Shown in pieces: positions 5,518-64,000 of a DNA stretch of 64,000 bases. The stretch spans positions 294,623-358,622 of the forward strand of contig NZ_JACOFU010000002.1 in NCBI RefSeq assembly GCF_014284275.1. The letters are read 5' to 3'. The notes under the pieces were generated by a model. It did not search any database and had not been told where the DNA came from. It saw nothing but the letters and a program-made list of their open reading frames with translations. The first letter of the stretch is position 1; each line of letters opens with the position of its first letter. Both the position numbers and the translations under genes were made by a program. The DNA is from Affinundibacterium amnicola (GTDB taxonomy: Bacteria; Pseudomonadota; Gammaproteobacteria; Burkholderiales; Burkholderiaceae_D).

Positions 5518-6156
5518 TCAACATAACGGTGCCACTGCCAGCTGCTCGAGGTCCTGACGGAGAGCTGAAGCGCTACCCAAGTTTGCAAGGCCAATGCGTG
5601 CAAATGCTGCAGAGTCATTTGCCAAACCCTGGCTTAGACGGAATCGCGCCAAGGTAAGTGCCATTCGTATCTTGGTTGAACTAAACCCAGAAAAATCAAA
5701 AGAATCCTTATCGAACTCCTCAGCGGTGACCACATTCAAAGGAGCACCAGGCCCTGAAACATGTTCTAGAAGAGGACGTCCAACCTCAATGTAGACTAAA
5801 CTCGCGGCCGACGCTGCAACATTCATGCTGTCTTCAGTCCCATCATGATTCCACCACTGGTCTGAATCCGTTTCGGAGAGTCGGCGTCGAAACTCGCAAA
5901 GCCCTTCGGTAATTTTCTTAGGGTCAGGTTGGTTTCCCAGTCGGTCTGGCACGGCGAGCGGGTGCACAGCTAAGTTAATTGCGAATGAGCCGCCGTCTCT
6001 CCTGCCTTGCACACTTACCACTTGCACCCAGCCGGCAATGACGCGCCAAAACTTCGAGCCTGAACCAGCAAAACCGTCAGCGCGCAAGCAAGGAACAAGG
6101 TGCGCGCGAATTGCAGTGTCTAGGCGTGGTTTAGCAGTTACATTCATGTTTTCCAT
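5518..6156 (-). CDS. DUF4304-family protein
   Basis: A soluble protein of about 212 residues. The N-terminal half fits DUF4304: LVPCLRADGFAGSGSKFWR, then WVQVVSVQGRRDGGSFAINLAVHP, a pattern of a Gly-rich turn, an aromatic strand and an FxINL strand. The function of the family is unknown. An ATG at 6156 (with a second at 6147) is preferred over a TTG at 6168, which lies within the attC-like site. By eye it is more GC-rich than its neighbours, consistent with a separately acquired cassette. The stop is followed by 137 bases with no gene. Confidence 0.55.
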   Translation of the reverse strand: MENMNVTAKPRLDTAIRAHLVPCLRADGFAGSGSKFWRVIAGWVQVVSVQGRRDGGSFAINLAVHPLAVPDRLGNQPDPKKITEGLCEFRRRLSETDSDQWWNHDGTEDSMNVAASAASLVYIEVGRPLLEHVSGPGAPLNVVTAEEFDKDSFDFSGFSSTKIRMALTLARFRLSQGLANDSAAFARIGLANLGSASALRQDLEQLAVAPLC

Positions 6157-6160
6157 CGCC

Positions 6161-6207
6161 TTAGCCAAGCGAAGCCGAAGGCATCCGACTTGAACGATTT
6201 GTTAAAC
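6161..6207 (-). repeat. attC-like recombination site (degenerate)
   Basis: Read on the minus strand, the site starts 24 bases after the stop of the frameshifted gene with GTTTAAC, then AAATCGTTCAAG, a GC-rich imperfect palindrome around TTCGGCTTCGC and a TTGGCTAAGGCG segment just before the next gene. The GTTTAAC/CGTTCAAG arrangement closely matches the R''-L'' half of integron 59-base elements such as the aadA type; the opposite R' core (GTTRRRY) is not clearly present, so it may be decayed. Confidence 0.45.
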
Positions 6208-6231
6208 CCATCTAAGATAGGAAGAATTTTT

Positions 6232-6482
6232 CTATTGGACATCTGGTTCAGCCATAAAACGTACGATTTCTTCGTCGTTCACAATAAACGTGTAGTACAC
6301 ACCGCCACTGAATCCGTCAATCTTGAAACTTCACAAGGCAGCACAGGGTCAAGTTCAGCGAGTCGTGAGCTCAAACGAGAAATCAGCTCACGCCCTATCG
6401 CAGTAGGACTAATCACACCCGAGTCCATCATCGCCTTCCGAGTCTGATAGATTTTCAAATAATGGCCAACAGAGAGTGTCAT
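6232..6482 (-). pseudogene. Small frameshifted gene, unknown function
   Basis: Reading from ATG 6482 gives MTLSVGHYLKIYQTRKAMMD and about 55 sensible residues, then a stop. A different frame continues with a protein-like stretch (DGFSGGVYYTFIVNDEEIV, then RFMAEPDVQ) ending at TAG 6232-6234. The switch is near 6320-6335, implying a single-base indel. Whether this is a real mutation or a sequencing error cannot be decided here. The intact product would be about 83 residues, soluble and not of a family I recognise. It is bracketed by attC-like palindromes on both sides, as a gene cassette would be. Confidence 0.5.
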
Positions 6483-6488
6483 TTATTA

Positions 6489-6537
6489 TGGTTTAAGACA
6501 TAGCGCCGGCCTGTCCCTAGCAGAGCTTTGTTGACCA
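6489..6537 (-). repeat. attC-like palindromic site
   Basis: Directly after the stop of the DUF1963 gene, the minus strand reads TGGTCAACAAAGC ... GCTATGTCTTAAACCA, an imperfect inverted repeat about 49 bases long with a GC-rich centre. It ends 7 bases before the start of the next gene. The size, position between stop and next start, and AAC/GTT cores at the ends fit an integron attC site. The core does not match the RYYYAAC consensus perfectly. Confidence 0.4.
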
Positions 6538-7269
6538 TTAGTGGCATTGCAACTCCATCTTGAACTCATTTTTATGTTCTGAACAACGAAAGAAATATAC
6601 TAGCCCGACATCTCCCCACATGATGTTAGCCTCATCTTCAGAATCAACTTGGGCGTAAAATTTCATGTCAGTATTGCACTTAGGACATGTTGGAATTGAT
6701 TCACTTTGAACGAAACGTGGGTACCCTCCCAAAAGCGTCGCATAATCATTTAGACACCCAGCTCTTTCGACAGCTTCCTCATATTCCTCCCAAGGAGAAT
6801 CGTCATTTATTTTGCAACATAGGTCGCTTAGCTCTCTTGATGCAGAATCAAGACCTTCCCAATCAGGATGAACATCAACAAATGAAGCTGTTACCTTACA
6901 AGGTGTAGGTGAATACTCGTCATGAGAGTTTCGACCTATTTCGGCTATTCTTTCAGTCTTCGGTTCGTTATATAGCTTTACTTCCCATTGCCCTTTTTGC
7001 TCATCACCAAGCCCCCAAGGAGAGCATTCATTGCAATAATAAAAAACGAAAAGATGTTGCTCTAACTCATCATGAATTTGATTGACGAATGTCAGCTCCT
7101 TTTTACAGGTCGGACACGACGGCCAGGAATCACCTACCTCTGCATAAGGAGTGCCTCCAAACTTACTTTCGCAGGAAGCAACTGAAGCTTCATCATCAGC
7201 TCTCGGCTCTAGCTTAATTGCCTTTTTCACCAATGGCCTTAATAAACTATCGATTTTTTCTCTGCACAT
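6538..7269 (-). CDS. DUF1963-like protein with paired Cys motifs
   Basis: A 243-residue soluble protein. ESKFGGTPYAEVGDSWPSC followed by a C..C pair and LTFVNQIHDE matches the opening of DUF1963 (YwqG-like) proteins, whose role is unknown. It has several putative zinc pairs: SCPTC (about 51-54), YYCNEC (about 78-81), and TCPKC near residue 204, plus a late FFRCSEH, suggesting a zinc-stabilised fold repeated twice. No signal peptide. It begins the minus-strand run of cargo genes, about 320 bases inside the transposon end region, so its promoter should lie in 7270-7590. Confidence 0.6.
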   Translation of the reverse strand: MCREKIDSLLRPLVKKAIKLEPRADDEASVASCESKFGGTPYAEVGDSWPSCPTCKKELTFVNQIHDELEQHLFVFYYCNECSPWGLGDEQKGQWEVKLYNEPKTERIAEIGRNSHDEYSPTPCKVTASFVDVHPDWEGLDSASRELSDLCCKINDDSPWEEYEEAVERAGCLNDYATLLGGYPRFVQSESIPTCPKCNTDMKFYAQVDSEDEANIMWGDVGLVYFFRCSEHKNEFKMELQCH

Positions 7270-7591
7270 ATCTCACCTACATTTATTGACAAGTTTGTTC
7301 TATTCGACAAACCATCGTTGTACTCTGACTGCCATTTCGTTTCATTTTACCAAGCAACTAAGATAGTATCAAGGAAACAACTCAAGTATGGGAGCAATGT
7401 GTAAAAGACGGATTCAATCTCAATCAAATCAATTCGCTCATTCGCTGGAAGTAATCACTTAATTCACTGAACCACCGTTTGTAGGCAGCGTTCAGGCAAT
7501 CAGAAAACCATAGACCTGTTCAACAAACACGCGCAAATTCAATTTACAACTAATTGATTCCATTAGAGAAATTTTCTCAACAGACAAAAAG
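7270..7591. other. Non-coding stretch, no gene seen
   Basis: AT-rich sequence between the DUF1963 gene and the transposon-end repeats. It should contain the promoter of the minus-strand genes, but I could not pick out a convincing -35/-10 pair. No RNA gene is recognised. Confidence 0.4.
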
Positions 7592-7627
7592 AAGGCATAA
7601 AGCGAGGAAAGTTCCGCTTTATGCCTT
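7592..7627. repeat. Perfect 13-bp inverted repeat at inner edge of transposon end
   Basis: AAGGCATAAAGCG (7592-7604) and CGCTTTATGCCTT (7615-7627) are exact reverse complements separated by ten bases. The outward arm overlaps the innermost TnsB-like site. It may be a back-to-back pair of degenerate transposase sites. Confidence 0.7.
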
Positions 7628-7628
7628 A
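7610..7628 (-). promoter_or_regulatory. TnsB-like site 4 (innermost, degenerate)
   Basis: Minus strand TAAGGCATAAAGCGGAACT. It keeps GCATAAAGCGGAACT of the better sites but lacks the leading GACA. Confidence 0.5.
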
Positions 7629-7640
7629 ATTGATGTGGAA

Positions 7641-7659
7641 AATTCCACCTTATGCTGTC
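7641..7659 (-). promoter_or_regulatory. TnsB-like site 3
   Basis: Minus strand GACAGCATAAGGTGGAATT, one of the spaced repeats at the transposon end; compare Tn7 sites of the form GACAAAATAGTTGGGAACT (recalled). Confidence 0.65.
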
Positions 7660-7663
7660 CGTT

Positions 7664-7682
7664 AGTTCCGCTTTATGCTGTC
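7664..7682 (-). promoter_or_regulatory. TnsB-like site 2
   Basis: Minus strand GACAGCATAAAGCGGAACT, the copy closest to a consensus of all four; five bases from site 3. Confidence 0.7.
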
Positions 7683-7719
7683 CGCGGGTAGTCTAAGTCA
7701 TTGATTTTATGGAGAGATG

Positions 7720-7738
7720 AGTTCCACATTATGGTGTC
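7720..7738 (-). promoter_or_regulatory. TnsB-like site 1 (terminal)
   Basis: Minus strand GACACCATAATGTGGAACT, seven bases inside the proposed terminus. The outer bases 7739-7745 read TGTGGGT on the minus strand, as in Tn7 ends (TGTGGGCG). A 5-base target duplication would be TTGAA at 7746-7750. Confidence 0.7.
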
Positions 7739-7760
7739 ACCCACATTGAATTAAGGCCAC

Positions 7761-7792
7761 AAAAAAACCCGCTTAATAAAGCGGGTTTTTTG
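7761..7792. terminator. Bidirectional rho-independent terminator after tolC
   Basis: CCCGCTT-AATA-AAGCGGG stem (7768-7785) with A-tract on the left and T-tract on the right, so it can terminate both strands. It lies 20 bases past the tolC stop and just outside the transposon end. Confidence 0.9.
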
Positions 7793-7811
7793 TTTTCTAA
7801 TACCTGATAAT

Positions 7812-9131
7812 TTACTGCGCCAACAAGACATTAACCTCAGCCAAATCAGCTTCTTTTAATGATCCAGCCGCTGCTTTCAAGCGCAATCCACTCATGATGG
7901 AATCGTAACGTGCCTTTGCCAAGCTCTGGCGCGTGTTGGATAATTTTTGCTGTGCATTCAACACGTCGATATTAATACGCACACCGACTTGATAACCCAG
8001 CTTGGTGGAATCTAATGCAGATTGGCTTGAAATTTCAGCCGCCTCGAAGGCTTTAATTTGCGCTAAACCACTGACTACACCGATATAAGATTGGCGTGCA
8101 GCTTGTGCAGCGTTACGGCGTGCAGTTTCCAAGTCATTACGCGCCTTATCTTCTAAAGCGATTGATTCACGAACTTTGCTATCGGTACCAAAACCAGCGA
8201 AAATCGGTACATTCAAAGTCACACCGATTGTTTTAGGCTTGGAATAACCAGATGGCGATGCTACGCTTGCGTTCACGGAATTTCGCCCTGCTGTCGCAGT
8301 CAAATCCAAAGTTGGCAAATGACCTGCGCGACTCTTTTTAATTTCACGTTGCGCAATTTCCAAACCAACTTGAGAGGTTGCTACTACAAAGTTCTGTTTT
8401 TCAGCTGAACTGACCCAGTCGTTAATCTGCGCTGGAACCGGTGCTGTCAATTGAACGCCATCTTTCAGCTTCGCTAAATCACCTGCATCTTTACCGATGA
8501 TTTGACGTAAAGCCGCACGTTTCACTTCTAAATCACCTTGGCCGGCTAATTCTTGTGCCGTAATTAAGTCATATTGTGACTGTGCTTCATGCGTATCTGT
8601 AATCGTTTGTGTACCAACCTCGAAATTGCGCTTAGCGGAAGCCAATTGTTCTGCAACCGCCACTTTTTGCGCTTGCAAAGTCTTCAAGGTATTTTCAGCT
8701 GCCAATACGTCAAAATAAGCTTGGCTAACGCGCAGCATCAAGTCTTGTTGAGCCGCTGCAAACTGCAAATCAGCAGAGATCACCGACAATTTTGACTGTT
8801 CATAGGTTTCCCAAGATCCCCAGTTAAACAATGGTTGACTCAATGTAAAACCTAAGGAATTCGTATTACCCGATGACTTTGTCGTGGCGCCAACATCAGG
8901 ATCGAATTCACTTTGAGTACGTCGTACATTGGCATCCATCGTGACGCGTGGCAGCAAAGCAGCACGCCCTTGAACTGAACGTTCTTGACCAGCCAATTTA
9001 GAAGCACGCGCTGCACTAAATTGTGCATCATTGATTAAGGCTTCTTTGTAAATTTGTAGCAAATCGCTAGCGCCTGCATTTAAAGAAATAAACGCGGTCG
9101 CAATAAATGTAGCGATAATAGATTTACGCAT
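7812..9131 (-). CDS. tolC: TolC-family outer membrane efflux channel
   Basis: A 439-residue outer-membrane factor for type I secretion and RND/MFS efflux. From ATG 9131 (GGAG eight bases upstream) there is a signal peptide ending near LNAGA, then the two repeated OEP halves of a TolC trimer: long helices with DLLQIYKEALINDAQFSAARA at the start and the second repeat around NFVVATSQVGLEIAQREIKKS. FNWGSWETYEQSK and FAGFGTDSKV mark the strand-helix transitions. An upstream in-frame start at 9209 would displace the signal peptide. It is followed in cis by a rhodanese and preceded by a Pcm-like methyltransferase, an order common in Burkholderiales. No periplasmic adaptor or inner-membrane pump gene lies in the window. 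Confidence 0.88.
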   Translation of the reverse strand: MRKSIIATFIATAFISLNAGASDLLQIYKEALINDAQFSAARASKLAGQERSVQGRAALLPRVTMDANVRRTQSEFDPDVGATTKSSGNTNSLGFTLSQPLFNWGSWETYEQSKLSVISADLQFAAAQQDLMLRVSQAYFDVLAAENTLKTLQAQKVAVAEQLASAKRNFEVGTQTITDTHEAQSQYDLITAQELAGQGDLEVKRAALRQIIGKDAGDLAKLKDGVQLTAPVPAQINDWVSSAEKQNFVVATSQVGLEIAQREIKKSRAGHLPTLDLTATAGRNSVNASVASPSGYSKPKTIGVTLNVPIFAGFGTDSKVRESIALEDKARNDLETARRNAAQAARQSYIGVVSGLAQIKAFEAAEISSQSALDSTKLGYQVGVRINIDVLNAQQKLSNTRQSLAKARYDSIMSGLRLKAAAGSLKEADLAEVNVLLAQ

Positions 9132-52354: not shown

Positions 52355-52368
52355 CACCCATTTGGGTG
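52355..52368. promoter_or_regulatory. 14-base palindrome upstream of response regulator
   Basis: CACCCATTTGGGTG: arms CACCCA/TGGGTG around TT, ending 59 bases before the response regulator start. No T-tract follows, so it is more like a protein-binding site than a terminator. A near-identical sequence (CACCTATTTGGGTG) is in the terminator hairpin at 60650-60663. Confidence 0.4.
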
Positions 52369-52427: not shown

Positions 52428-53051
52428 ATGAAAGTCTTACTGGTCGATGATCACTCTCTGTTTCGTGCGGGTCTGCGATTGCTAACACAAAGCATACGCC
52501 CAGACACCGAGATTTATGAAGCAAATGGAATCAACGATGCCTTGGAATTAGCACAACGACATACCGATTTTCGTCTTTGCCTTCTTGACATTCATCTTTC
52601 AAATGAAAATGGGCTTCATGCTTTAACGCAATTAAAGCTAATCGCTCCCGAAATTGCAGTAGTAGTGGTGTCTTCAGAGGATAACTTTCAAGCAGTCTCA
52701 AACTCTCTCGATGCTGGAGCTATGGGTTTTATTCCCAAACGTTCAACGCCAACAGAATTATCAGCTGCGCTACAAAGAGTTCTTAATGACGAACTTTACA
52801 TTCCCCCGTCAATCAGCCACGAACGCAATAACAAATTCAATACGGCACCAGCAATGAGTAAGCGCCAGTGGGATGTCTTTTATTGCCTAATGCGAGGCCT
52901 GCCAAACAAGCTCATCTGTCGAGAATTAAACCTTTCTGAAAATACAGTGAAATCACATTTGGCCGCTATTTTTCGCGCCTTTGATGTTCATACCCGCACC
53001 CAACTACTGATCGTCGCAAGCAAAATAAATAATCTCCCTTCATTTCATTAA
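52428..53051 (+). CDS. NarL/LuxR-type response regulator
   Basis: A 207-residue two-component regulator. Receiver domain 1-120 starts KVLLVDDHSLFRAG; the phospho-acceptor is Asp54 in LCLLDIHLSNENG; Ser and Lys switch residues are in VVVSSED and FIPKRST. The LuxR-type HTH is at about 143-200 (MSKRQWDVFYCLMRGLPNKLICRELNLSENTVKSHL). The partner kinase lies 17 bases downstream. Weak purine box (AAAAAGG). Likely controls its own operon, including the large fusion enzyme gene. Confidence 0.92.
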   Translation: MKVLLVDDHSLFRAGLRLLTQSIRPDTEIYEANGINDALELAQRHTDFRLCLLDIHLSNENGLHALTQLKLIAPEIAVVVVSSEDNFQAVSNSLDAGAMGFIPKRSTPTELSAALQRVLNDELYIPPSISHERNNKFNTAPAMSKRQWDVFYCLMRGLPNKLICRELNLSENTVKSHLAAIFRAFDVHTRTQLLIVASKINNLPSFH

Positions 53052-53068: not shown

Positions 53069-54829
53069 ATGAAACCATCCTCGCTTAAGCCCGATCACGA
53101 TCAAGAATTCCTCAATTTAAGAATTCGTTTGCTTTCCCAACAGGCGATACGTGTGCCCGTTGTATTATTGGTTATTTCACTCATTGTTTGTTTTGCCTTA
53201 AAGGATGCGGTAAGTTTAGAACGTTTACTACTTTGGATCTTGATATTTCAATGCACCGCAATTCCAAGAGCAATATTTGCGTACTGGGTATTGTATCGTC
53301 GTAAAAACTCTAGATCAGCGATACGGGATTATTGGATTTTCATTCTATTTGCAGGATTAACAGGTTTAAGCGCCGGACTTTCTGCGCCCCTATTTTTCCC
53401 AACACTTTCTCCAGCAGAACAAGCCTTCATTGGCATGGTATTAACCGGTTTAGTCGCCGGTGGTGTCGCGACCTCGGGTAGCTCCCCTTTGGTACTTGCC
53501 GCATATGCGCTAGCGGCGCTATTACCGCTAGGATTTGCATGGAATATCTACGGAAACGATCGCTCCCATTTAGTCACTTGGTTAGTTCTGCTTTTCAGCA
53601 CCATTATGGTGGCCTACGCACGTGATGGGAAAAAAGTCCTCTATGAATCTTTTCTAATCCGTCGTCAACGCGATGAGGCTATTAACCTATTGCAACAAAA
53701 AAATGAGGAAATCATCCAAGCTAAAGCGACAATGGAAAACCTCGCTCAGACAAAAAATCGAGTACTTGCCGCTGCGAGTCATGACCTTCGGCAACCATTA
53801 CATGCTTTATCAATTTACAGCGCGGTTTTATCAGCAAACCCAAGCACCGCTACCTTGAAAGAAATTGGACAAAATATTAATCAACTAGTTGGTTCACTTG
53901 CCGCACTATTAGATGCAATGCTAGATCTATCGCAACTAGATAGCAATTCATTTCCAACTCAAAATAATCAAACCTGTCTGGCAAAAATCAGCAGAAAGAT
54001 TGCTTCAGAATTTGAGCACAGCATCACCTCAAAAGGATTACGCTTGGAGGCTTCATTGCTAGATGCTCCAGTGCACAGTGATCCCTTAATTTTAGAAAGA
54101 ATGATACGCAATCTCGTTGATAACGCGGTTAAGTACACTAGTCACGGCTATATACGTATTCGCACCGAGGTAGGTGAAGGTAAATCTATCTTTTCTGTCG
54201 AAGACAGTGGAAAAGGAATTGCCAATCACCAATTAGGGAAAATTTTCGAAGAATTCTATCAAATTGACAATCCTGGTCGTGATCGTCGCCAAGGTTTAGG
54301 TCTAGGTCTTTCTATAGTACAGCGCATGGGAAATTTGATCCAAACTGAACTTAATTTGGAATCCAAGCTTGATGTAGGGACGACTGTCACGCTCAAACTT
54401 CCCTACTTTGTGGCCAACCAACATGATGTTTTACAAGAAAATGTTCGCGCCAATCTACTAGGTGGAACAACCATACTTTTGATCGACGATGAATATTCTA
54501 TTATTGCAAGCATGAGTGCCTTATTGCAAATGTGGGGCGCAAAATCTCTCTCAGCGACCGATAGAAGCAGTGCCTTGAAGGCTATCCAATCCAATCACCG
54601 CATCGATTTCATCATTGCAGATCTACGGCTTAAGAATGGTGAAAACGGCATTGCTGTAGTCAGAGAAATTCAACACGAATTTACCGCAATACCAGCACTG
54701 ATTATCTCCGGAGAGACTTCGCCTGAACGTCTGTCAGAAGCAAAAAATTCGGGGTATCCAGTTCTACAAAAGCCCGTCACCGCAGATCAACTGTACGCCA
54801 CGCTACTAGATCAACTCCACTTAAAATAA
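53069..54829 (+). CDS. Hybrid membrane sensor histidine kinase
   Basis: A 586-residue hybrid kinase. The N-terminal 200 residues hold about six membrane segments (RVPVVLLVISLIVCFAL ... TWLVLLFSTIMVAYA) with no large periplasmic domain, so sensing is likely in or near the membrane. A coiled coil leads to AAASHDLRQPLHALS with phospho-acceptor His238, an ATPase domain (NLVDNAVKYT, EDSGKGI, LGLGLSI), and a C-terminal receiver (LLIDDEYSI, phospho-Asp518 in IIADLRLKNGENG, LQKPVT). The HDLRQPLHAL group is common next to NarL regulators. Only 21 bases precede the large fusion gene. Confidence 0.92.
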   Translation: MKPSSLKPDHDQEFLNLRIRLLSQQAIRVPVVLLVISLIVCFALKDAVSLERLLLWILIFQCTAIPRAIFAYWVLYRRKNSRSAIRDYWIFILFAGLTGLSAGLSAPLFFPTLSPAEQAFIGMVLTGLVAGGVATSGSSPLVLAAYALAALLPLGFAWNIYGNDRSHLVTWLVLLFSTIMVAYARDGKKVLYESFLIRRQRDEAINLLQQKNEEIIQAKATMENLAQTKNRVLAAASHDLRQPLHALSIYSAVLSANPSTATLKEIGQNINQLVGSLAALLDAMLDLSQLDSNSFPTQNNQTCLAKISRKIASEFEHSITSKGLRLEASLLDAPVHSDPLILERMIRNLVDNAVKYTSHGYIRIRTEVGEGKSIFSVEDSGKGIANHQLGKIFEEFYQIDNPGRDRRQGLGLGLSIVQRMGNLIQTELNLESKLDVGTTVTLKLPYFVANQHDVLQENVRANLLGGTTILLIDDEYSIIASMSALLQMWGAKSLSATDRSSALKAIQSNHRIDFIIADLRLKNGENGIAVVREIQHEFTAIPALIISGETSPERLSEAKNSGYPVLQKPVTADQLYATLLDQLHLK

Positions 54830-54850: not shown

Positions 54851-57800
54851 ATGAGTTCTCAATCTTCTCAAAAACTCAGTCTTCCAATCGAAAGCTTAAT
54901 TGAAAAAGATGAGACGTGGATTAATGACAAAGAACTCAACATAAGTCGATCAAGTAACTTCGACCTCATCATTATTGGAAGCGGTTATGGTGGTGCGGTT
55001 GCGGCGGCCCGCTTTGCTGGCGCGACCGAAAGTGATAAGCCATTAAAGATCGCGGTCTTTGAACGGGGGCGAGAAATTTCACCAGGTGATTTTCCGAATA
55101 CTTTTGCACAGCTCCCCGGCGAGCTGCGTATTCAAAATTACGACAACGACAAACTGACTGGTGACGCAATGTCACTATTCGATCTTCGATTAGGTAAAAC
55201 GGTCAACGTCTTACTCGGCAATGGTCTTGGTGGTGGTTCTTTGATCAATGCTGCGGTAGTCGAAGAGCCACACAGTGATATTTGGAATGATCCCAGTTGG
55301 CCACAAGCGCTACGTGAAGAATCGACGAAATCCATTTATTTTGAACGAGCAAAAAAACAACTAGCCGCGACACGTATCGATAGTTGGGATTCATGCTTGC
55401 CGGACAAGTTGACCTCAATGAAAAAACTATCTGACAAGATAGGCGAAAATCGCTATCGTACCGTCAACATTGCTATCGACGGACAGCAATGTATAGGATG
55501 TGGTGATTGCATTACGGGCTGCAATGTTAATGCAAAAAATACCCTACCTAAAACCTATCTGGCCCAAGCAAAAAAAAATGGCGCGTCGTTATACACAGGT
55601 GCAACAGTCAGTCATCTGGAGCGTATTCAACAAATTGATACCCAAGGAAACAGTCAACTATATTGGTTAGTATTCTTTGTCCTGACCAGCGGAAAATCAC
55701 ATAGCAGCCAACAACAAATGTGGGTCGTAAAAACGAAACATGTCATCTTATCTGCAGGAGCAATTGGCAGTACCGAAATTCTCCAACGATCACAAGCGAT
55801 GAGTTCAGAGTTACGATTTTCTAAGGTGCTCGGGCAAGGATTCTCTTGCAATGGCGATATGATCTGGAACGGTTACAATCAGTTGGATATCGTCAATGCA
55901 ATCGCTGATCCAGCGCAGGCTATCGCCGACAGAAAAGTCGGCCCCACGATCGCAAGTATGATAGATCTGCGAAATGAAGCCGTTCCACGTGTAATTCAAG
56001 ATGCGACCGTCCCTGCTGCATTGAAACGCCTATTTGAAGAAGTCGTTACCACCAATTCAGTCGCTTATCGTATGATCAAGCGAGATAACGAGCAACGACA
56101 TTTTCATCAAGATGTCGATGCTGTAGATCCTCAAAAAATTAGACGCACTGCGATCTATTTAACAATGGGCAAAGACAGCGCCAACGGACAAATTAATTTC
56201 ATTCACAAAACGCCGAAAACAAATACGGGCATACATGGGCGCAGCGAAATAAATTGGGGTTTGGAAGACGAAAATACGTTACAGCGTGAAGAAGATACCG
56301 ACAATGTATGCAATGACCACGTCTATAGTTCTTGCGAAGACTCTTTGCAATCCGTCACAAAACTAGGCGGAACCCTAATACCTAACCCTGCATTTAGAAT
56401 TGCCCCAAAAAAGTTATTAGATCAATTGTCGGGAAAACGCGGCCTTAATTCAACGATCACTGTGCACCCCTTAGGCGGTTGCCGTATGGGCGACGACGTT
56501 CAGCGTGCGGTTGTCAATCATTTTGGTGCCGTGTTCGCCCCGCAATCTCACACAGGCAGCGTGCATGAGGGTCTGTATGTACTAGATGGCTCAATTATTC
56601 CTTGTTCTATAGGGATTAATCCATTACTGACAATCTCCGCGTTATCAGAGCGAGCTGTCACACATATTGCGGATACAGAATCGTGGATTTTGCAAACAAC
56701 CCAAAAAGACGAAGCGCAAACTTCTCCAGGATTAACCATACCTAAAGCCAAGCATGCAATAACAGAACCAATCGCTTCAGAAAAAACGTCTTTTTCATTT
56801 CAAGAAATCATGAATTGGGACGGCAAAGATCCTATTCAAAAAGCATGCTTTGAAAATGCAGGCATCTCTGACATAGAAAAAGCAAAATTAATCGTTAAAT
56901 TTCACATCGGTGACCAACATTTATCAGAATTTTTACGGGACCCACAACGTATCGTTAAGATAGACCATGCTTACCTAGAAATAAGCAGAATAAAAAACTC
57001 AACACAAAACCAAACATCAACACAACAAATCCCGTTGCAAGGGCAAGTGCGCTGGCTATGGGAAACTCCTGAAGATAATGACACCAAAGAACGACATGGC
57101 TTCGCTCAATATTTCCGTAGCCGTGCCCGTGCCGATTTAAGAAATCGTACAGATGTTTCTCCATTATTAAAATTTTTTCTTGATATAGGCATCAAAATTT
57201 CCAACCGATATAACTATGTTCCACCTAACTGGTTGATTAGAACAATTGGGACGTTCAAAGAGGAAGTCAATGACCTGCTAACACTCGCAAGTCATACCGG
57301 TGGACACCGTCTACTTCACTACGACTTAAAAAACAACGCTGAAAATCTGCATCTTATTGGCTTCAAAGATGTAAATTACGGTGATGGTTCTAACCTATGG
57401 CGCTCGCTGGGCGAATTAAAAGTTCGTTTAAATTATCAAAACAAACAAGTGGAAGGACTCAAATTCTGTTTAGATTGGAACAAGATATTTGAAGATAATA
57501 GCTTTCAAATTGATGCAAATAAACAAGGCACGCCGCGCAATCCAGATGTCTGGTTAGACTTATTTTCTATTTTTTCATTCTGGGCACGTAGTCTAGTGCG
57601 TATTCACTTCTGGAGTTTTCGTTTACCCGAAGTGCAGACCCAACCGCGCAATCCCCATTTACCGACATCGAACAACAGCACTTGGCATCACATCACACTC
57701 ACAGACTCACACCAGCAGCAAATTCAGATCGGTCTTACCCACTTTCCAGCAAAAAAAGTAAACGCCGATTTGCCTCCTGTATTAATGATTCACGGATTTG

Positions 57801-60496
57801 GTGCTTCTGGCTTGCAATTTGCAGCACCAGGAAAACAAACCAGTATGGCCGAACATTTTCAAAACCAAAATCGTGACGTCTGGGTTGCAGATTTGCGTAC
57901 TAGCATCGCCTTAAATCGTGATTTACCAGACAAATTAGCCCAGTGGTCTTTAGATGAAGTCGCACAAAATGATTTGCCTGCACTAGTCCACTACGTCCTA
58001 GAGAAAACAGGATTTAAACAAATTGATATCCTCGCACATTGCATCGGCTCAGCAATGTTTAATATTGCCGTTCTATCTGGCAGGTTGATGCAAGAAGATA
58101 GAAAAACGTCCCTCATTCGCAGTGCGGCTTTAATGCAAGTAGGGCCGATCTTCACTGTTTCTGAAAATAACAAACTGCGTGGATACTTTGCCTATTTCGT
58201 AGGTAAAGGTATGGAGGTAGACTTTATCGACAGCAGTACAGATAGAAATAGCGAAGATGCCAATAACACCCTAATTGACAGAGTGCTGAGCACCTACCCC
58301 GTTCCAATTTCAGAGCTTCACTGTGACGAGCCGGAAAAAAGCCTGAGTCCTGTTTTCCCTGATAATCAATGGCTAGCAAACTATTATCGTTCGTCTGGGG
58401 TTTTTGGTCGTTTATTCGACATCCAACAACTCTCTGTAGAAATGCTCAACCAACTTGGCGATCTCTTGGGTAGAACCAACTTCAAGACTTTCCAACAAAT
58501 CATACAAAGCGTTATGCGTAATCGCTTGGTTGATATTGATGGTCGCAACTGCTATGTCAATGCCGATAATTTCCGGCAATTTTATAACTTCCCTACCCGG
58601 TTCTTCTATGGCGAAGAAAACGATGTATTTGATCGTTGGGGTATCATCAATTCTGTGAAGCAGTTACGCTCCGCTCATGGATGGTCCGAATCACTCGATG
58701 GCTTAGATCAGTCATCTCCCTACTCTTACCAATTTTTCCCAGGGTTTGGCCATCTCGATCCCATCATCGGCATCAATTCAGCAAGCAAGGTATACCCCGC
58801 ACTAAGTGACTTTCTAAAAAATAGACACACCTTTTTTCCACCAGTGAACGATCTAGAATCACTTTATTTACGACAACCCAATTATGGCCCCATCGTTGGA
58901 TGGACGCGCAAAGTGGATGGAAAATGGACGTCGCGCGTTTGGCTAAGTGCTCGCGAAACCGCAGGGAACGCCTTGTATGCTGCGGCCTATCGTCGAAATA
59001 ACAAAAATAATGAAATCAGCGATCTGAAATTATTCCCGATTCAAAACCTATTCGGCTTTCAGTACATTAATATCGATTTACATTTAAACTCAGCCGATGA
59101 AAACATTCACTTTAGCTGCTTGCATCGTCACTCACAGGCTGGTAGTGGGTCATATTTCGTCAAACTAGTATGCGAAAATTTTGACCTGCTTCAACAAGAG
59201 CACGAACAAACACGCCCCAAACCAACACGTAACAATGATATAGGTACACCCACTCCGCAAGAAGTTATTTCTGACATCGCTTACTTTGACCATTCATTTC
59301 AAACGAGTTTAGAAAAAACAATTGAAGCAAAAATTAATGCCTCAATGCCTGAAATAAAAGCTGAGCTTATAAAAAATTCAGTTACCGCCAGCCCGAAAAT
59401 TATTGAACGACCAGACAACATCAGCAGAGTTGCGCTGGGTTCCTGCAGGTACTCTGGAACCATGTTAGAACAAGTTCGAAATAATGCTCCCTATGCAAAG
59501 TTACTCAAATCCCTAGCCGATACAAACTCCCCAGAATTAATGTTATTGATGGGAGATCAAGTTTATGTAGACGCCACTGCAGGTGTCGCAGATACCAGTG
59601 ATAAAGCCAGCATACTTTCTCTCTACCACCGCAGTCTCGCACGTACTTTTAATAATGAAGCATTGTCTGCGGCGCAGGTTTTTAGCAGACTCCCTGCCTA
59701 TATGATGCTCGATGATCATGAGATACAGGACAATTGGAATTCTTCTGACGATGTCGGTAGTCCAAATAAACAAGCATTAACTGAAATGTCGATTGCAGCC
59801 TTTCTAGCCTATCAATGGTCACACGGCGCACGCAATCCTGTATGGCAGAACGTCAATCAATACTGGAGTAGTTTTAGCAGTGGCAACATAGATTTCTTTA
59901 TGATCGATACTCGCATGGAACGAACTGCACTCGTACCGATGAGCGATGCACGCATCATCAATGATGAACAATTTAATGCGATCAAACGTTGGCTTTCATC
60001 GACCCGCAATAACGGACGCCTGCGGCTACTGATTTCTCCCAGCCAAATTCACAATATGGAAGACGCCCACATTTTACGCAGTGATTCATGGACCGCTTAT
60101 CCACATAGTTTAAAAAAACTGTGCGACTTGCTCGCGCAAGAAGAACATGTTGGCATACTTTGCGGAGATCAGCATCTACACGGCGTGTATAGCCTGGACT
60201 ATCAGGATGAAAACAAGGTAAGTGTCCGACAAATTCCAGTCATCGTCGCCTCACCGCTCTATGCACCCTACCCCTTTGCTAATCCTCGCAATGACCTGCC
60301 TGTTGGAAGCAGTCACGCAATCAACCGTGCCGCAAATGGAAACTTAATTCATTATCGTATCGTCGCAACCAATTCCAACTATCAGGGATTCTCACAACTC
60401 AGAATTGAAAACCGGGAACAACATTGGCAAGGCCAACTGTATCAAGTTGATGGCACAACGCCGTTATTTCCTGAAATTAACGAGATCACATTTTAA
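54851..60496 (+). CDS. Giant fusion: GMC oxidoreductase / alpha-beta hydrolase / PhoD-like phosphatase
   Basis: One uninterrupted frame of 1881 codons with AGGAG seven bases upstream. Residues about 36-615 are a GMC/cholesterol-oxidase-like FAD enzyme: DLIIIGSGYGGAVAA (38-52), NGLGGGSLINA, a CIGCGDCITGCNVNAKNTL cluster (C214, C217, C220, C224) and HPLGGCRMGDD (539-549). Residues about 650-960 are an uncharacterised region. Residues about 975-1330 are an alpha/beta hydrolase (MIHGFGASG; AHCIGSAM with Cys1064 where Ser is usual; Asp1258 or Asp1261; His1301 in GFGHLDP). Residues about 1525-1881 are PhoD-like: ALGSCRYSG, GDQVYVD (D1569), DDHEIQDNW (1621-1629), GDQHLHG (1773 on). No signal peptide is evident. 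Co-directional with the kinase genes. Substrates are unknown; coupled oxidation and ester or phosphoester cleavage of a lipid-like compound is a guess. Confidence 0.85.
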   Translation: MSSQSSQKLSLPIESLIEKDETWINDKELNISRSSNFDLIIIGSGYGGAVAAARFAGATESDKPLKIAVFERGREISPGDFPNTFAQLPGELRIQNYDNDKLTGDAMSLFDLRLGKTVNVLLGNGLGGGSLINAAVVEEPHSDIWNDPSWPQALREESTKSIYFERAKKQLAATRIDSWDSCLPDKLTSMKKLSDKIGENRYRTVNIAIDGQQCIGCGDCITGCNVNAKNTLPKTYLAQAKKNGASLYTGATVSHLERIQQIDTQGNSQLYWLVFFVLTSGKSHSSQQQMWVVKTKHVILSAGAIGSTEILQRSQAMSSELRFSKVLGQGFSCNGDMIWNGYNQLDIVNAIADPAQAIADRKVGPTIASMIDLRNEAVPRVIQDATVPAALKRLFEEVVTTNSVAYRMIKRDNEQRHFHQDVDAVDPQKIRRTAIYLTMGKDSANGQINFIHKTPKTNTGIHGRSEINWGLEDENTLQREEDTDNVCNDHVYSSCEDSLQSVTKLGGTLIPNPAFRIAPKKLLDQLSGKRGLNSTITVHPLGGCRMGDDVQRAVVNHFGAVFAPQSHTGSVHEGLYVLDGSIIPCSIGINPLLTISALSERAVTHIADTESWILQTTQKDEAQTSPGLTIPKAKHAITEPIASEKTSFSFQEIMNWDGKDPIQKACFENAGISDIEKAKLIVKFHIGDQHLSEFLRDPQRIVKIDHAYLEISRIKNSTQNQTSTQQIPLQGQVRWLWETPEDNDTKERHGFAQYFRSRARADLRNRTDVSPLLKFFLDIGIKISNRYNYVPPNWLIRTIGTFKEEVNDLLTLASHTGGHRLLHYDLKNNAENLHLIGFKDVNYGDGSNLWRSLGELKVRLNYQNKQVEGLKFCLDWNKIFEDNSFQIDANKQGTPRNPDVWLDLFSIFSFWARSLVRIHFWSFRLPEVQTQPRNPHLPTSNNSTWHHITLTDSHQQQIQIGLTHFPAKKVNADLPPVLMIHGFGASGLQFAAPGKQTSMAEHFQNQNRDVWVADLRTSIALNRDLPDKLAQWSLDEVAQNDLPALVHYVLEKTGFKQIDILAHCIGSAMFNIAVLSGRLMQEDRKTSLIRSAALMQVGPIFTVSENNKLRGYFAYFVGKGMEVDFIDSSTDRNSEDANNTLIDRVLSTYPVPISELHCDEPEKSLSPVFPDNQWLANYYRSSGVFGRLFDIQQLSVEMLNQLGDLLGRTNFKTFQQIIQSVMRNRLVDIDGRNCYVNADNFRQFYNFPTRFFYGEENDVFDRWGIINSVKQLRSAHGWSESLDGLDQSSPYSYQFFPGFGHLDPIIGINSASKVYPALSDFLKNRHTFFPPVNDLESLYLRQPNYGPIVGWTRKVDGKWTSRVWLSARETAGNALYAAAYRRNNKNNEISDLKLFPIQNLFGFQYINIDLHLNSADENIHFSCLHRHSQAGSGSYFVKLVCENFDLLQQEHEQTRPKPTRNNDIGTPTPQEVISDIAYFDHSFQTSLEKTIEAKINASMPEIKAELIKNSVTASPKIIERPDNISRVALGSCRYSGTMLEQVRNNAPYAKLLKSLADTNSPELMLLMGDQVYVDATAGVADTSDKASILSLYHRSLARTFNNEALSAAQVFSRLPAYMMLDDHEIQDNWNSSDDVGSPNKQALTEMSIAAFLAYQWSHGARNPVWQNVNQYWSSFSSGNIDFFMIDTRMERTALVPMSDARIINDEQFNAIKRWLSSTRNNGRLRLLISPSQIHNMEDAHILRSDSWTAYPHSLKKLCDLLAQEEHVGILCGDQHLHGVYSLDYQDENKVSVRQIPVIVASPLYAPYPFANPRNDLPVGSSHAINRAANGNLIHYRIVATNSNYQGFSQLRIENREQHWQGQLYQVDGTTPLFPEINEITF

Positions 60497-60625
60497 GCAA
60501 ATCAACATTAGAAAAATACGGACTTATTCAGTAGGCACGAATAAGTCCGCACCACCCAAAAGCCATTCGGCGACATTCTCGCATTTTCTACACGCATCGC
60601 ATTGATTTTATTGCTCTCAAGAATT

Positions 60626-60672
60626 CACCCAAAAAGGTGTGTTATCTCCCACCTATTTGGGTGACTTTTTTT
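60626..60672 (+). terminator. Strong rho-independent terminator after fusion gene
   Basis: CACCCAAAAAGGTG (60626-60639) and CACCTATTTGGGTG (60650-60663) pair over 14 bases with one mismatch, loop of ten bases, then ACTTTTTTT. Lies 130 bases past the stop. The rest of 60497-60862 contains no gene. Confidence 0.85.
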
Positions 60673-60862
60673 AATTCAAAAAACATCATACTTTAAGCGT
60701 AAGTGCGATCGGTGCGTCATTAGAACGAAGCGCTTATTTCATCCAAGAATTTTATCTATTAACAAAATTCAGAAGCTTAGAGTTGGCATCGGCAAGCTAT
60801 CTTAAACAGCTTATCTGCATGCCTTCACACTCCGGGTTTCTTCTCACATTAAAGTGATTGCT

Positions 60863-62323
60863 ATGAATATTCGTTTACATCAAGCTACAACCGCACTTCT
60901 TACTGGACTCTTGCTGATCGGGGGTAATGCATTGGCGGAGGATAAAAAAGAACCGATTAAAACTACAATTGTTGAAAGAGTTAAAGAAATCAAATTTAAT
61001 GATCCTAATCGCATTCATATTTTCATTTCTCCCTTGCAACTAGCAATAGATGAAACCAACAAAGAGGAAACAAGAAAAGATTGGGCAGATCGAAAAAGGA
61101 ATACAAATGTACAAATATTTTGTCGTCAAGCCGATCTCGAAGGAGATTATGACCGATCAAATTCATTTGTCTTAAGAGGAACAGGCCCCTCGGAATCATT
61201 GGTACCGTGCAATACGTCCCGTTTCATATCAAGAGAAGGTGCCATTATTTCTGTAATTTATATTGACAAGCCTGATCAGATCAATATGCCAATAGAAAGT
61301 ACCGAAATTAAGAATGCCCGCGAAGCAGCTCGCCTTGCAAAACGAGAGGCGACAAAGGCAAAGGAAATTGCGATCAGAGCTCTAGCCATTGAAGAAGCAC
61401 AAATAAAAATTAACAAAGCAAATGAATCTTTGAATTTATCTACAGCTCTATTAAAAGCAAAAAAAGAGAGGCAACATGCGAAGGTAAATGCCGAACAGTT
61501 AGAAGGTGAATCAGAGCTAGCAGATATCAATCTCAGTGATCTTATTAAGTCTAAAAAGGCAGGAAAATTAGAAATACAAAAAACAGAAAACAAATTCTGC
61601 TCAGAAAAACGCAGACTTCCCAGTTTAGAAGACATTACAGAAACAGAAAGAACAACATTATTCGCGTTGCAATTGAAACAAGGTATCAAATATATTACCC
61701 CAGAACAAGATGCACTCTTTTCGCAAGAGTCTGCGCAACCTGATCCCGAAGCAACCGATTCGATCTGCGCTTGGCAGTGGACTGAATATACGCTCACAAA
61801 AAAACGCGCCGTCATTCAAGCGAGTACAGTTGATCCTGTCAAAGCCGATACTCCACTCAGTTTTAAAGTCATTAGTGGTTCAAAAGAACATTTCTTCCTG
61901 TCTGTGGACGCCATTTTCAAAGATGTCAAACAACTCAAAGCAGCAGCAAAAAGCAAAGATGATATTCAAGGTAAACCAGAACGTGTATTCTTAAGCTTAA
62001 ATTATATGGTGGGTGATGTTTATGGCACCCTCCCCACTTTTGACCACCGTCGCTTGGTGCTTAAAGGGTTGATCACCCCAAATCAACAAATCGACTCTTA
62101 TGGCGTTGGATTGGGCTATCGATTACCAGGATTGTTTTCCACTTCCAAAATTGATAGCGAAGAACACAGCGGCTTGGTTGTTTTCGTCGGCAGATTTTGG
62201 ACTCGTCCAGCGAAATCACCGCTAGATATTCCAAATACCGATAGCAGAAGAATTGCCAGTACCAGTGTTGGTATTAGCTATAGCTTAGGTGCAGCTTTAG
62301 ATTGGCTAGTGCCGAAAAAATAG
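60863..62323 (+). CDS. Exported protein with coiled coil and beta-rich C-terminus, unknown
   Basis: A 486-residue protein of no family I recognise. Signal peptide HQATTALLTGLLLIGGNALA, cleavage before EDKKEP. Residues about 145-240 are a Lys/Glu/Ala-rich helix (KNAREAARLAKREATKAKEI..., LKAKKERQHAKVNAEQ) that should form a coiled coil. The last 130 residues (FLSLNYMVGDVYGTL, GYGLGYRLPGLF-like VGLGYRLPGLFS, LVVFVGRFWTRP, STSVGISYSLGAAL) read as alternating amphipathic strands, like an outer-membrane or periplasmic beta domain. The ATG at 60863 is chosen over a GTG at 60854. Follows the fusion gene after a terminator, so it has its own promoter. Confidence 0.65.
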   Translation: MNIRLHQATTALLTGLLLIGGNALAEDKKEPIKTTIVERVKEIKFNDPNRIHIFISPLQLAIDETNKEETRKDWADRKRNTNVQIFCRQADLEGDYDRSNSFVLRGTGPSESLVPCNTSRFISREGAIISVIYIDKPDQINMPIESTEIKNAREAARLAKREATKAKEIAIRALAIEEAQIKINKANESLNLSTALLKAKKERQHAKVNAEQLEGESELADINLSDLIKSKKAGKLEIQKTENKFCSEKRRLPSLEDITETERTTLFALQLKQGIKYITPEQDALFSQESAQPDPEATDSICAWQWTEYTLTKKRAVIQASTVDPVKADTPLSFKVISGSKEHFFLSVDAIFKDVKQLKAAAKSKDDIQGKPERVFLSLNYMVGDVYGTLPTFDHRRLVLKGLITPNQQIDSYGVGLGYRLPGLFSTSKIDSEEHSGLVVFVGRFWTRPAKSPLDIPNTDSRRIASTSVGISYSLGAALDWLVPKK

Positions 62324-62573: not shown

Positions 62574-63497
62574 TTACTTCACCACTCGCACAGGAATCGG
62601 CACATTACACAACTCAATATGATTCGCAGCGAATTTATACCAATCACCACCGCGATTTCTCTGTGCTTCTACCAAAGCTTTAAAATTAGCAGTATCTGTG
62701 CGGAGGACTTCTAATTTAATCCGCTCAGCCTCTGGCACATCGGCTGCTATGCGTACCGATTTAATCAGTGTGCGTTCTTCTGGCTTTTCATAAAAACCTA
62801 AAGCGCCAGTGCCGCGTGGCAGGCTGGAGAGTAATTCTATACCGTACATAACGCGACCGACTACGGTGATATTACGATCGAGATTACGTGGTGCGTGACC
62901 AGTAACGGCGTAGAGAGAACTTCCGTTACCGCTGTCGGTTTCATTGCCACGGGCAACGCCGATTGCACCGTAACAGTGGGTGAGCCAAGTCGTTTGTGTT
63001 TTGGGGTCGCGAGCTGCTGCGAAGCTATTCACGTGTCCGACTTGTGGCGCATAGCCGTCGACATCAGGCAATCGGGTGAACGGTGCATCGTTCTTGTATT
63101 TCACTGTAAATTCGCCTTCGACTTTTTTCGCCGCATTTTTAAATTCACGCTTCTCACCTGGGTCTCCCCACTGTGCAACGTAATTATCATGCGAACGTAT
63201 CATTGCTAGTCCGTCAAAATAGCCCTCTTTGACTAATGCTTTGATATTCGCCACATTTTTTGGCGCAAACTCAGGCGCAAGCTCAATCACCACACGACCT
63301 TTTTCCATTTCTAAATACAAGGTATTGTCAGGATTGAGGACGCGCCAGTCACTTGCTTGAGATGACTTCAAGATATCGGCCATGCTCAATTTTGGCAAGG
63401 ATACCTTTGATGCTTTTTGCTGAGCTGACACCGAACTCGCCAGCAAAGAGAATATTGCTGCCAAAGCGATCTTTGTATAAGTAAAATTTGTCCTCAT
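62574..63497 (-). CDS. Exported cyclophilin-type peptidylprolyl isomerase
   Basis: A 307-residue protein with signal peptide (FTYTKIALAAIFSLLASSVSAQ). The cyclophilin domain spans about 60-250: YLEMEKGRVVIELAPEFAPKNVANIKALVKEGYFDG, AMIRSHDNYVAQWGDP, HCYGAIGVARGNETDSGNGSSLYAVTGHAPRNLDRNITVVGRVMYG. It carries an insertion between the first Arg-containing strand and the GxxGVAR segment and an alpha-helical tail, making it longer than PpiA. Catalyses X-Pro isomerisation in the periplasm, probably aiding folding. Stands alone on the minus strand, downstream of an M16 peptidase. Confidence 0.88.
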   Translation of the reverse strand: MRTNFTYTKIALAAIFSLLASSVSAQQKASKVSLPKLSMADILKSSQASDWRVLNPDNTLYLEMEKGRVVIELAPEFAPKNVANIKALVKEGYFDGLAMIRSHDNYVAQWGDPGEKREFKNAAKKVEGEFTVKYKNDAPFTRLPDVDGYAPQVGHVNSFAAARDPKTQTTWLTHCYGAIGVARGNETDSGNGSSLYAVTGHAPRNLDRNITVVGRVMYGIELLSSLPRGTGALGFYEKPEERTLIKSVRIAADVPEAERIKLEVLRTDTANFKALVEAQRNRGGDWYKFAANHIELCNVPIPVRVVK

Positions 63498-63604: not shown

Positions 63605-64000
63605 CTAATTTGGTTTCATTTGCTCTGGATACATAACGACCTGAATATAATTGTCCATATTCAAGTAGATCTTTGCTGCGTCTTGGACTTCCCTCGTTTG
63701 CAATTGTTTTACTCTGTCATTGAATGTAAATACGTGCATAGGGTTTTCATTATCCTCTTTCATCTCATTGAATATTGCCATCCAAAATTCATTGGTTTTC
63801 ATTTGCTCTTGACGATTTTTCAGCCAATTCTCTTTCACTTTTTTCAGTTCATCCTCGGTCACAGGATTTTTTTTCATGTCTTCAATCAAGGTAAAACTAC
63901 TGCGCAATAATTGGTCCACATGCTCAGGTCCACTAGGTAAGTAAAGCTCGACCATATATCCCTGATAAGGATTTAAGATTGTTCTGTATGAGACTTGCGG
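63605..64000 (-). CDS. M16 (insulinase-like) zinc peptidase, C-terminal end only
   Basis: The frame is open to the window edge (SYRTILNPYQGYMVELYLPSGPEHVDQLL...), so only the last 131 residues are seen. The YQG..VELYLPSGPE turn, LKKVKENWLKNRQEQMKTNEFWM and LQTREVQDAAKIYL are typical of the C-terminal M16 domain of PqqL-like peptidases. The zinc motif HxxEH would be in the N-terminal part beyond the edge. A likely periplasmic protease. About 107 bases separate it from the cyclophilin gene on the same strand. Confidence 0.82.
   Translation of the reverse strand, partial: PQVSYRTILNPYQGYMVELYLPSGPEHVDQLLRSSFTLIEDMKKNPVTEDELKKVKENWLKNRQEQMKTNEFWMAIFNEMKEDNENPMHVFTFNDRVKQLQTREVQDAAKIYLNMDNYIQVVMYPEQMKPN

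Follow-up and report, generated by a model that had tools for sequence, protein, structure and literature searches.

A five-unit enzyme joining GMC oxidoreductase, alpha/beta hydrolase and PhoD domains, and its tie to a two-component system, in Affinundibacterium amnicola

Introduction

What compound, or compounds, might be handled by a protein in which an oxidoreductase, a hydrolase and a phosphatase share a single reading frame? The question is raised by a gene of Affinundibacterium amnicola that lies in a 64,000-nucleotide stretch of contig NZ_JACOFU010000002.1 (positions 294,623 to 358,622), referred to below as the window. The protein belongs to a widespread family in which three enzyme superfamilies and a barrel are combined in one chain, usually beside a sensor of its own. 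Annotations name single parts ("cholesterol oxidase", "alkaline phosphatase D family protein", "alpha/beta fold hydrolase") and thereby hide the whole architecture. A preliminary description of this DNA, made from the sequence alone, knew of no characterised protein built in this way, and searches of open-licence PubMed Central papers aimed at the architecture gave no description of it.

Architecture of the enzyme

A single frame from ATG to stop, encoding 1881 amino acids, spans exactly 54851-60496 on the plus strand. Four Pfam families matched the protein above their own cut-offs: GMC_oxred_N (residues 103-316), GMC_oxred_C (537-598), Abhydrolase_1 (975-1074) and PhoD (1548-1813). These matches bear out the preliminary description in placing a GMC oxidoreductase, an alpha/beta hydrolase and a PhoD domain in one frame, and the three catalytic parts are all from known superfamilies. 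The middle region, which had been left unassigned, gave no Pfam match at E<=1 when residues 621-963 were scanned alone, and is now predicted to be a beta-barrel. Thus, the earlier picture is retained for the three domains and revised for the middle, and the enzyme consists of five units altogether: GMC, barrel, hydrolase, beta-rich linker and PhoD.

Residue conservation was determined in an alignment of the window protein and 120 homologues (121 sequences), these being the ones listed out of 123 proteins found at E<=0.001 in a search limited to 0.55-1.75 times the query length. The units and their conservation are as follows.

54851..60496, plus strand: five-unit enzyme, 1881 amino acids (open reading frame (ORF), Pfam, homologue alignment)
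54953..56686, plus strand: GMC oxidoreductase domain, residues 35-612 (H539 and N590 invariant in 121/121)
55490..55522, plus strand: CxxCxxCxxxC motif, residues 214-224 (cysteines 214, 217, 220 and 224 in 121, 112, 121 and 121 of 121)
56768..57715, plus strand: predicted beta-barrel with helical insert, residues 640-955 (E652, Y824 and K839 invariant in 60/60, in an alignment of 60 of the 121 proteins)
57716..58825, plus strand: alpha/beta hydrolase of acid-lipase fold, residues 956-1325 (C1064 at the nucleophile position, H1301, and N1257 at the usual acid site)
58862..59410, plus strand: beta-rich linker, residues 1338-1520 (the break precedes the linker in most split loci)
59414..60493, plus strand: PhoD domain, residues 1522-1881 (Pfam and invariant residues)

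The GMC matches scored 50.6 bits for GMC_N (cut-off 23) and 40.4 bits for GMC_C (cut-off 24.6), H539 and N590 align with the catalytic blocks of cholesterol oxidase, and the domain has the features by which the GMC superfamily is recognized. It shares the FAD motif and the catalytic His and Asn blocks with the cholesterol oxidase of the GMC family (1COY, 1B8S). Unlike that enzyme, it carries an added Cys motif, is fused to further enzymes and stays below the equivalog cut-off of the cholesterol oxidase model NF058674 (160.4 bits, cut-off 850). Judged from its sequence, the domain most closely resembles cholesterol oxidase, with the four-cysteine motif added, and the motif may hold an iron-sulfur centre.

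The fold nearest to the hydrolase unit is that of lysosomal acid lipase/cholesteryl ester hydrolase. Compared with the gastric and lysosomal acid lipases (1HLG, 1K8Q, 6V7N), the window hydrolase has the same fold but differs at the catalytic positions: C1064, which like H1301 is present in 121/121 sequences, aligns with the serine of the lipases' GHS, so that the serine nucleophile of acid lipases is lacking, and an asparagine (N1257, 114/121) occupies the acid site. Since the nucleophile position is a cysteine, a plain serine esterase is disfavoured, and the Cys-for-Ser swap in an acid-lipase fold poses a directly testable biochemical question. Cysteine is the nucleophile of the polyhydroxyalkanoate (PHA) synthase PhaC; the alpha/beta hydrolase fold with a Cys nucleophile is common to PhaC (9KNJ) and the window hydrolase, the cysteine of the latter being assigned by position only.

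The PhoD match reached 68.9 bits (cut-off 27), and residues C1532, D1569, Y1572, D1621, D1622, H1623, E1624, D1773 and H1775 are conserved in 121/121 sequences. The blocks GD..Y, DDHE, D.WDGYP and GD.H are shared with Bacillus subtilis PhoD (2YEQ), from which the window domain differs in having no export signal and in being fused behind an oxidoreductase-lipase protein. Because every segment of the enzyme stays under the hydropathy threshold (maximum 1.59, threshold 1.6), and because the N-terminal threshold was passed by none of the 121 proteins, the enzyme is probably soluble and cytosolic.

Fused and split forms

An apparent fusion can also arise from missed stop codons or from assembly errors merging adjacent genes, and the separate PhoD frame in some relatives would be compatible with such an origin. 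However, all 120 listed homologues carry PF09423, PF05199 and PF00732 (precomputed Pfam column) at lengths of 1803-2377 amino acids, and the copies in genomes G000, G009 and G029 have no internal stops. The G029 copy is 60% identical over residues 26-1879, its 5' end being the end of the contig. Since all listed homologues carry GMC and PhoD at similar length, the fusion is not an artefact; this explanation, whose probability we consider negligible, was rejected. Thus the sequencing-fused stops that the preliminary description had named as a possible refutation were not found.

Split short forms fall outside the length limits of the homologue search and were found instead by a profile scan of genome contigs. 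The profile was made from 60 of the 121 proteins, the best 80 of at least 574 stretches encoding relatives were kept, and all locus counts given here derive from these 80. When all six frames were searched, 58 loci matched the barrel profile (three-enzyme class), and the 22 that did not (13 Pseudomonas, 7 Bacteroidota, one cyanobacterium and one Caldithrix) were taken as the outgroup; the outgroup proteins probably also hold a diverged barrel. PhoD was fused in 36 of the 58 three-enzyme loci and encoded by a separate gene just downstream in 19, whereas in 3 (L027, L053, L062) the contig ended first. No match to the window-type PhoD profile was detected in the outgroup loci (0/22).

In 18 of the 19 split loci the first frame ended 0-41 residues past the hydrolase profile; in L025 this distance was 141. 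A candidate PhoD start overlapped the end of the first gene in 11/19, nine of these being NTGA overlaps, and in L048 the separate PhoD gene begins after 480 nt. In a quick tree of 64 proteins, where long branches meet and single placements are unsure, at least 7 changes between fused and separate PhoD were counted. That the neighbours were repeatedly fused and split argues for a functional link between the parts. Separate coding of the domains with no functional link had been named beforehand as evidence against the proposal; although PhoD is separate in 19/58 loci, it lies there on the same strand just downstream, with overlapping candidate starts in 11/19, an arrangement that speaks for a link.

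Link to a two-component system

The enzyme gene is preceded by the following features.

52355..52368, no strand: palindrome CACCCATTTGGGTG, candidate operator, 73 nt before the response-regulator ATG
52428..53051, plus strand: response regulator, REC and GerE (LuxR), 207 amino acids (Pfam)
53069..54829, plus strand: hybrid histidine kinase with six hydrophobic N-terminal segments, HisKA, HATPase_c and REC, 586 amino acids (Pfam, hydropathy)

All three genes share one strand; 17 nt separate the regulator from the kinase, and 21 nt the kinase from the enzyme. A window-like kinase was found within 2.5 kb in 44/58 three-enzyme loci (including L054, where it lies at 6076-7905 and the frames overlap), and in 37 it was immediately upstream on the same strand. 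None was detected in the 22 outgroup loci, two of which have less than 1.1 kb of upstream sequence; the difference is significant by Fisher's test (p 1.4e-10, not corrected for kinship). A window-like regulator was near 34 of the 44 kinase-bearing loci. In one homologue, P0089 of Aquabacterium J223, kinase domains and enzyme form a single chain of 2377 residues, a fusion seen in this one genome only. The enzyme is thus strongly tied to a two-component system, as the preliminary description had proposed for the window.

Enzyme and kinase divergence were correlated over 42 loci (0.87; 0/2000 permutations as high, highest 0.31), and so were enzyme and regulator divergence over 32 loci (0.49; 0/2000 as high, highest 0.36); shared species history contributes to both values. 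When compared with the window kinase by one program, 32/44 linked kinases scored above both of the top paralogues from the genus (224 and 223 bits), and 12 scored lower. The nearest NCBIfam models, those of MxtR/ErdR (CrbS/CrbR) and NahK/ErcS' signalling, differ from the window proteins in that the latter score below the cut-offs (ErdR, 115 of 390 bits for the regulator; 256 of 400 for the kinase). In Pseudomonas, according to PMC12997753, ErdR and MxtR are connected with the use of acetate, and ErdR also with swarming induced by ethanol.

Within the genus, the enzyme is present in 2/35 genomes besides the window's own, G009 and G029. Of the 39 genomes of the genus compared, the window's among them, G009, an enzyme holder, was the only other one in which an orthologue of the kinase (58%) was found; the remaining genomes have kinase relatives of 30-34% or none at E<=1e-60. 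The G029 contig stops immediately upstream of the enzyme. In G009 the three genes are grouped (regulator 72%, kinase 57%, enzyme 49%), and the 14.4 kb read there gave no match to any of 11 further genes of the window, so that the trio resembles a cassette. Two genes that lie downstream of the enzyme in the window, 62574-63497 and 63605-63955, are again found next to it in G029.

No further conserved neighbour was found in these loci beyond kinase and regulator, most neighbour clusters being shadow ORFs inside the enzyme or kinase gene. The exceptions were a divergent gene of Rhizobiales (7 loci) and a cluster touching 8 loci, the one scanned member of which is a GGDEF-EAL protein. At the two Rhizobiales loci scanned, L059 (3617-7699, minus strand) and L072 (3419-7465, minus strand), both lacking the two-component system, the divergent gene encodes a protein of about 1350 amino acids with cyclase and AAA domains, a possible replacement regulator.

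Relatives without PhoD

A search with a Pseudomonas GMC-hydrolase protein yielded at least 3266 matches within the length limits. The 120 listed, of 1002-1171 amino acids, share with the window enzyme the GMC domain with CxxCxxCxxxC, the E/Y/K residues of the barrel and the Cys hydrolase, the four motif cysteines and the nucleophile cysteine each being present in 120/120. These proteins of about 1150 amino acids (Pseudomonas, Ralstonia, Chromobacterium and others) differ from it in having no PhoD, and the 22 outgroup loci, which include 13 from Pseudomonas, gave no related kinase. They are annotated as "cholesterol oxidase", "GMC oxidoreductase", "choline dehydrogenase" or "alpha/beta fold hydrolase", and no characterised member was found in searches of open-licence PubMed Central papers. 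Identification of the substrate would assign a function to the five-unit family and probably to this large family too.

At the one Pseudomonas locus scanned (L077, 11630-14770), the GMC-hydrolase gene is followed by genes for a RoxA-like cytochrome c and a calcineurin-like phosphoesterase. This locus brings together the three functions of the window enzyme, its phosphoesterase being from another Pfam family. A Bacteroidia GMC-hydrolase gene (L087, 11308-14804, plus strand) is followed by a calcineurin-like phosphoesterase and by a 7TMR-DISM protein that contains a cyclase domain, so that a sensor again adjoins the enzyme. A cyanobacterial (L096, 7950-14682) and a Bacteroidota locus (L075, 7523-16253) have GMC and hydrolase on separate genes, and an ADC-family protein and a patatin as well. 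The neighbours of the relatives point to lipid chemistry involving an alcohol, an acyl group and often phosphate.

Possible function

The reading that we favour, although tentatively, is that of an inducible enzyme of the cytosol that strips one lipophilic alcohol derivative of its phosphate and acyl groups and oxidises it. The hybrid kinase would sense a membrane signal, the LuxR-type regulator would bind the palindrome before the operon, and the operon of regulator, kinase and enzyme would then be transcribed. The PhoD domain would strip a phosphate or phosphodiester group from the lipophilic alcohol derivative, the Cys-His hydrolase would take over the acyl group as a thioester and then release it, and the GMC domain would oxidise the freed alcohol with its FAD. 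Electrons might pass via the putative iron-sulfur centre to a respiratory acceptor, and the barrel may hold the hydrophobic substrate between the sites. We infer the single shared substrate, its class, the order of the reactions and the electron acceptor.

The chemical theme of the preliminary description, a sterol-like or an esterified or phosphorylated alcohol, has gained support from the cholesterol-oxidase-like GMC domain, the cholesteryl-ester-hydrolase fold and the invariant metal-site residues of PhoD. Since no squalene/hopene cyclase family match was found in the window's genome, the cell's own hopanoids or sterols are unlikely substrates, and an endogenous substrate of this kind was disfavoured. 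A meta-cleavage steroid pathway was also rejected: with the single model of a ring-cleavage dioxygenase that was applied, the top hit reached 23 bits (cut-off 366).

Several observations weigh against the favoured reading. PhoD enzymes are usually exported by a Tat signal, and no N-terminal hydrophobic segment that could act as export signal was found in the enzyme (0/121 above the hydropathy threshold). A cysteine in place of serine is unusual in a lipase. The iron-sulfur centre is read from the spacing of a nearly invariant Cys motif, and all Pfam Fer4/ferredoxin matches were under cut-off. No near kinase was found in 14/58 loci, of which 2 are cut at the contig end (L029, L065), 8 are from Rhizobiales and 4 are others (L022, L028, L039, L084), and the large divergent gene mentioned above is common to 7 of the 8 Rhizobiales loci. 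Concerning the candidate operator, CACCYWWWWRGGTG occurs at 4 sites in the 4.58-Mb genome, 3 of which flank the enzyme operon. Since the reversed control pattern occurs at 3 genome sites, the number of palindromes is ordinary and the clustering alone is unusual. A palindrome upstream of the operon was found in 0 of 58 other loci (60 upstream stretches with guessed starts, two of the 58 loci having almost no upstream sequence).

The domains might instead be packaged together for scavenging, co-regulated under one sensor while each acts on substrates of its own (phosphoesters, esters, alcohols), all released from one source, for example membrane lipids. PhoD being a separate gene in 19/58 loci would fit this, as would the calcineurin-like phosphoesterase, of a different Pfam family, in the place of PhoD at the Pseudomonas and Bacteroidia loci, and the patatin lipase and ADC-family protein adjoining at one cyanobacterial and one Bacteroidota locus. 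In contrast, the repeated fusion, the constant domain order and the conservation of a barrel placed between oxidase and hydrolase speak for joint handling of a substrate, and we consider simple co-packaging doubtful.

It is unlikely, but would agree with the presence of kinase and enzyme in one polypeptide in Aquabacterium J223, on which the idea draws, that the locus is a closed sensing-and-processing device. The enzyme would then make or destroy a lipophilic signal read by the six-segment kinase, the hydrolase would represent a new class in which the acid-lipase fold has turned to Cys acyl transfer, and the barrel would be a fourth active or carrier domain. A biosynthetic acyltransferase appears rather improbable: like PHA synthase, the Cys enzyme would form an acyl-thioester and transfer the acyl group to an acceptor, with GMC and PhoD finishing a lipid or polyester-like product. 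However, the fold and the sequence around the nucleophile and the histidine are nearer to acid lipases, and PhaC_N was not among the 16 Pfam families matching the enzyme at E<=1, while an ordinary PhaC_N gene lies elsewhere in the window's genome. Two points would surprise the specialist: the cysteine at the nucleophile position of an acid-lipase fold, and the homologue that is fused to the kinase.

Palindromes and hairpins around the operon

Downstream of the enzyme gene the palindrome recurs.

60626..60663, no strand: two more palindromes, 60626-60639 and 60650-60663, operator pair or terminator

With one mismatch allowed, the window contains 3 matches (0.23 expected), a number reached in 0/100 shuffles. 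A match was found in 21 of 39 same-genus genomes, mostly one per genome. In G009 a one-mismatch match stands 74 nt before the ATG of its regulator; in G029 no palindrome was found in the 10.9 kb read, which excludes its upstream region. A promoter consensus scan was uninformative (13 sites, against 22 in shuffles).

The downstream pair can form a joint hairpin, which is followed by a T run (z -4.7). Because of this mutual pairing and the T run, the downstream palindromes may be a terminator. Another hairpin, at window positions 60515-60553 (z -5.6 as RNA), lies just past the enzyme stop, and the terminator scan flags the minus strand there. Behind the downstream palindromes is an orphan gene (60854-62323, plus strand) with a start that by eye is signal-peptide-like. 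Its product has no Pfam match above cut-off, the gene was not found in 38 other same-genus genomes, and 4 proteins of this kind were found, including itself. The gene might share the regulator of the enzyme operon.
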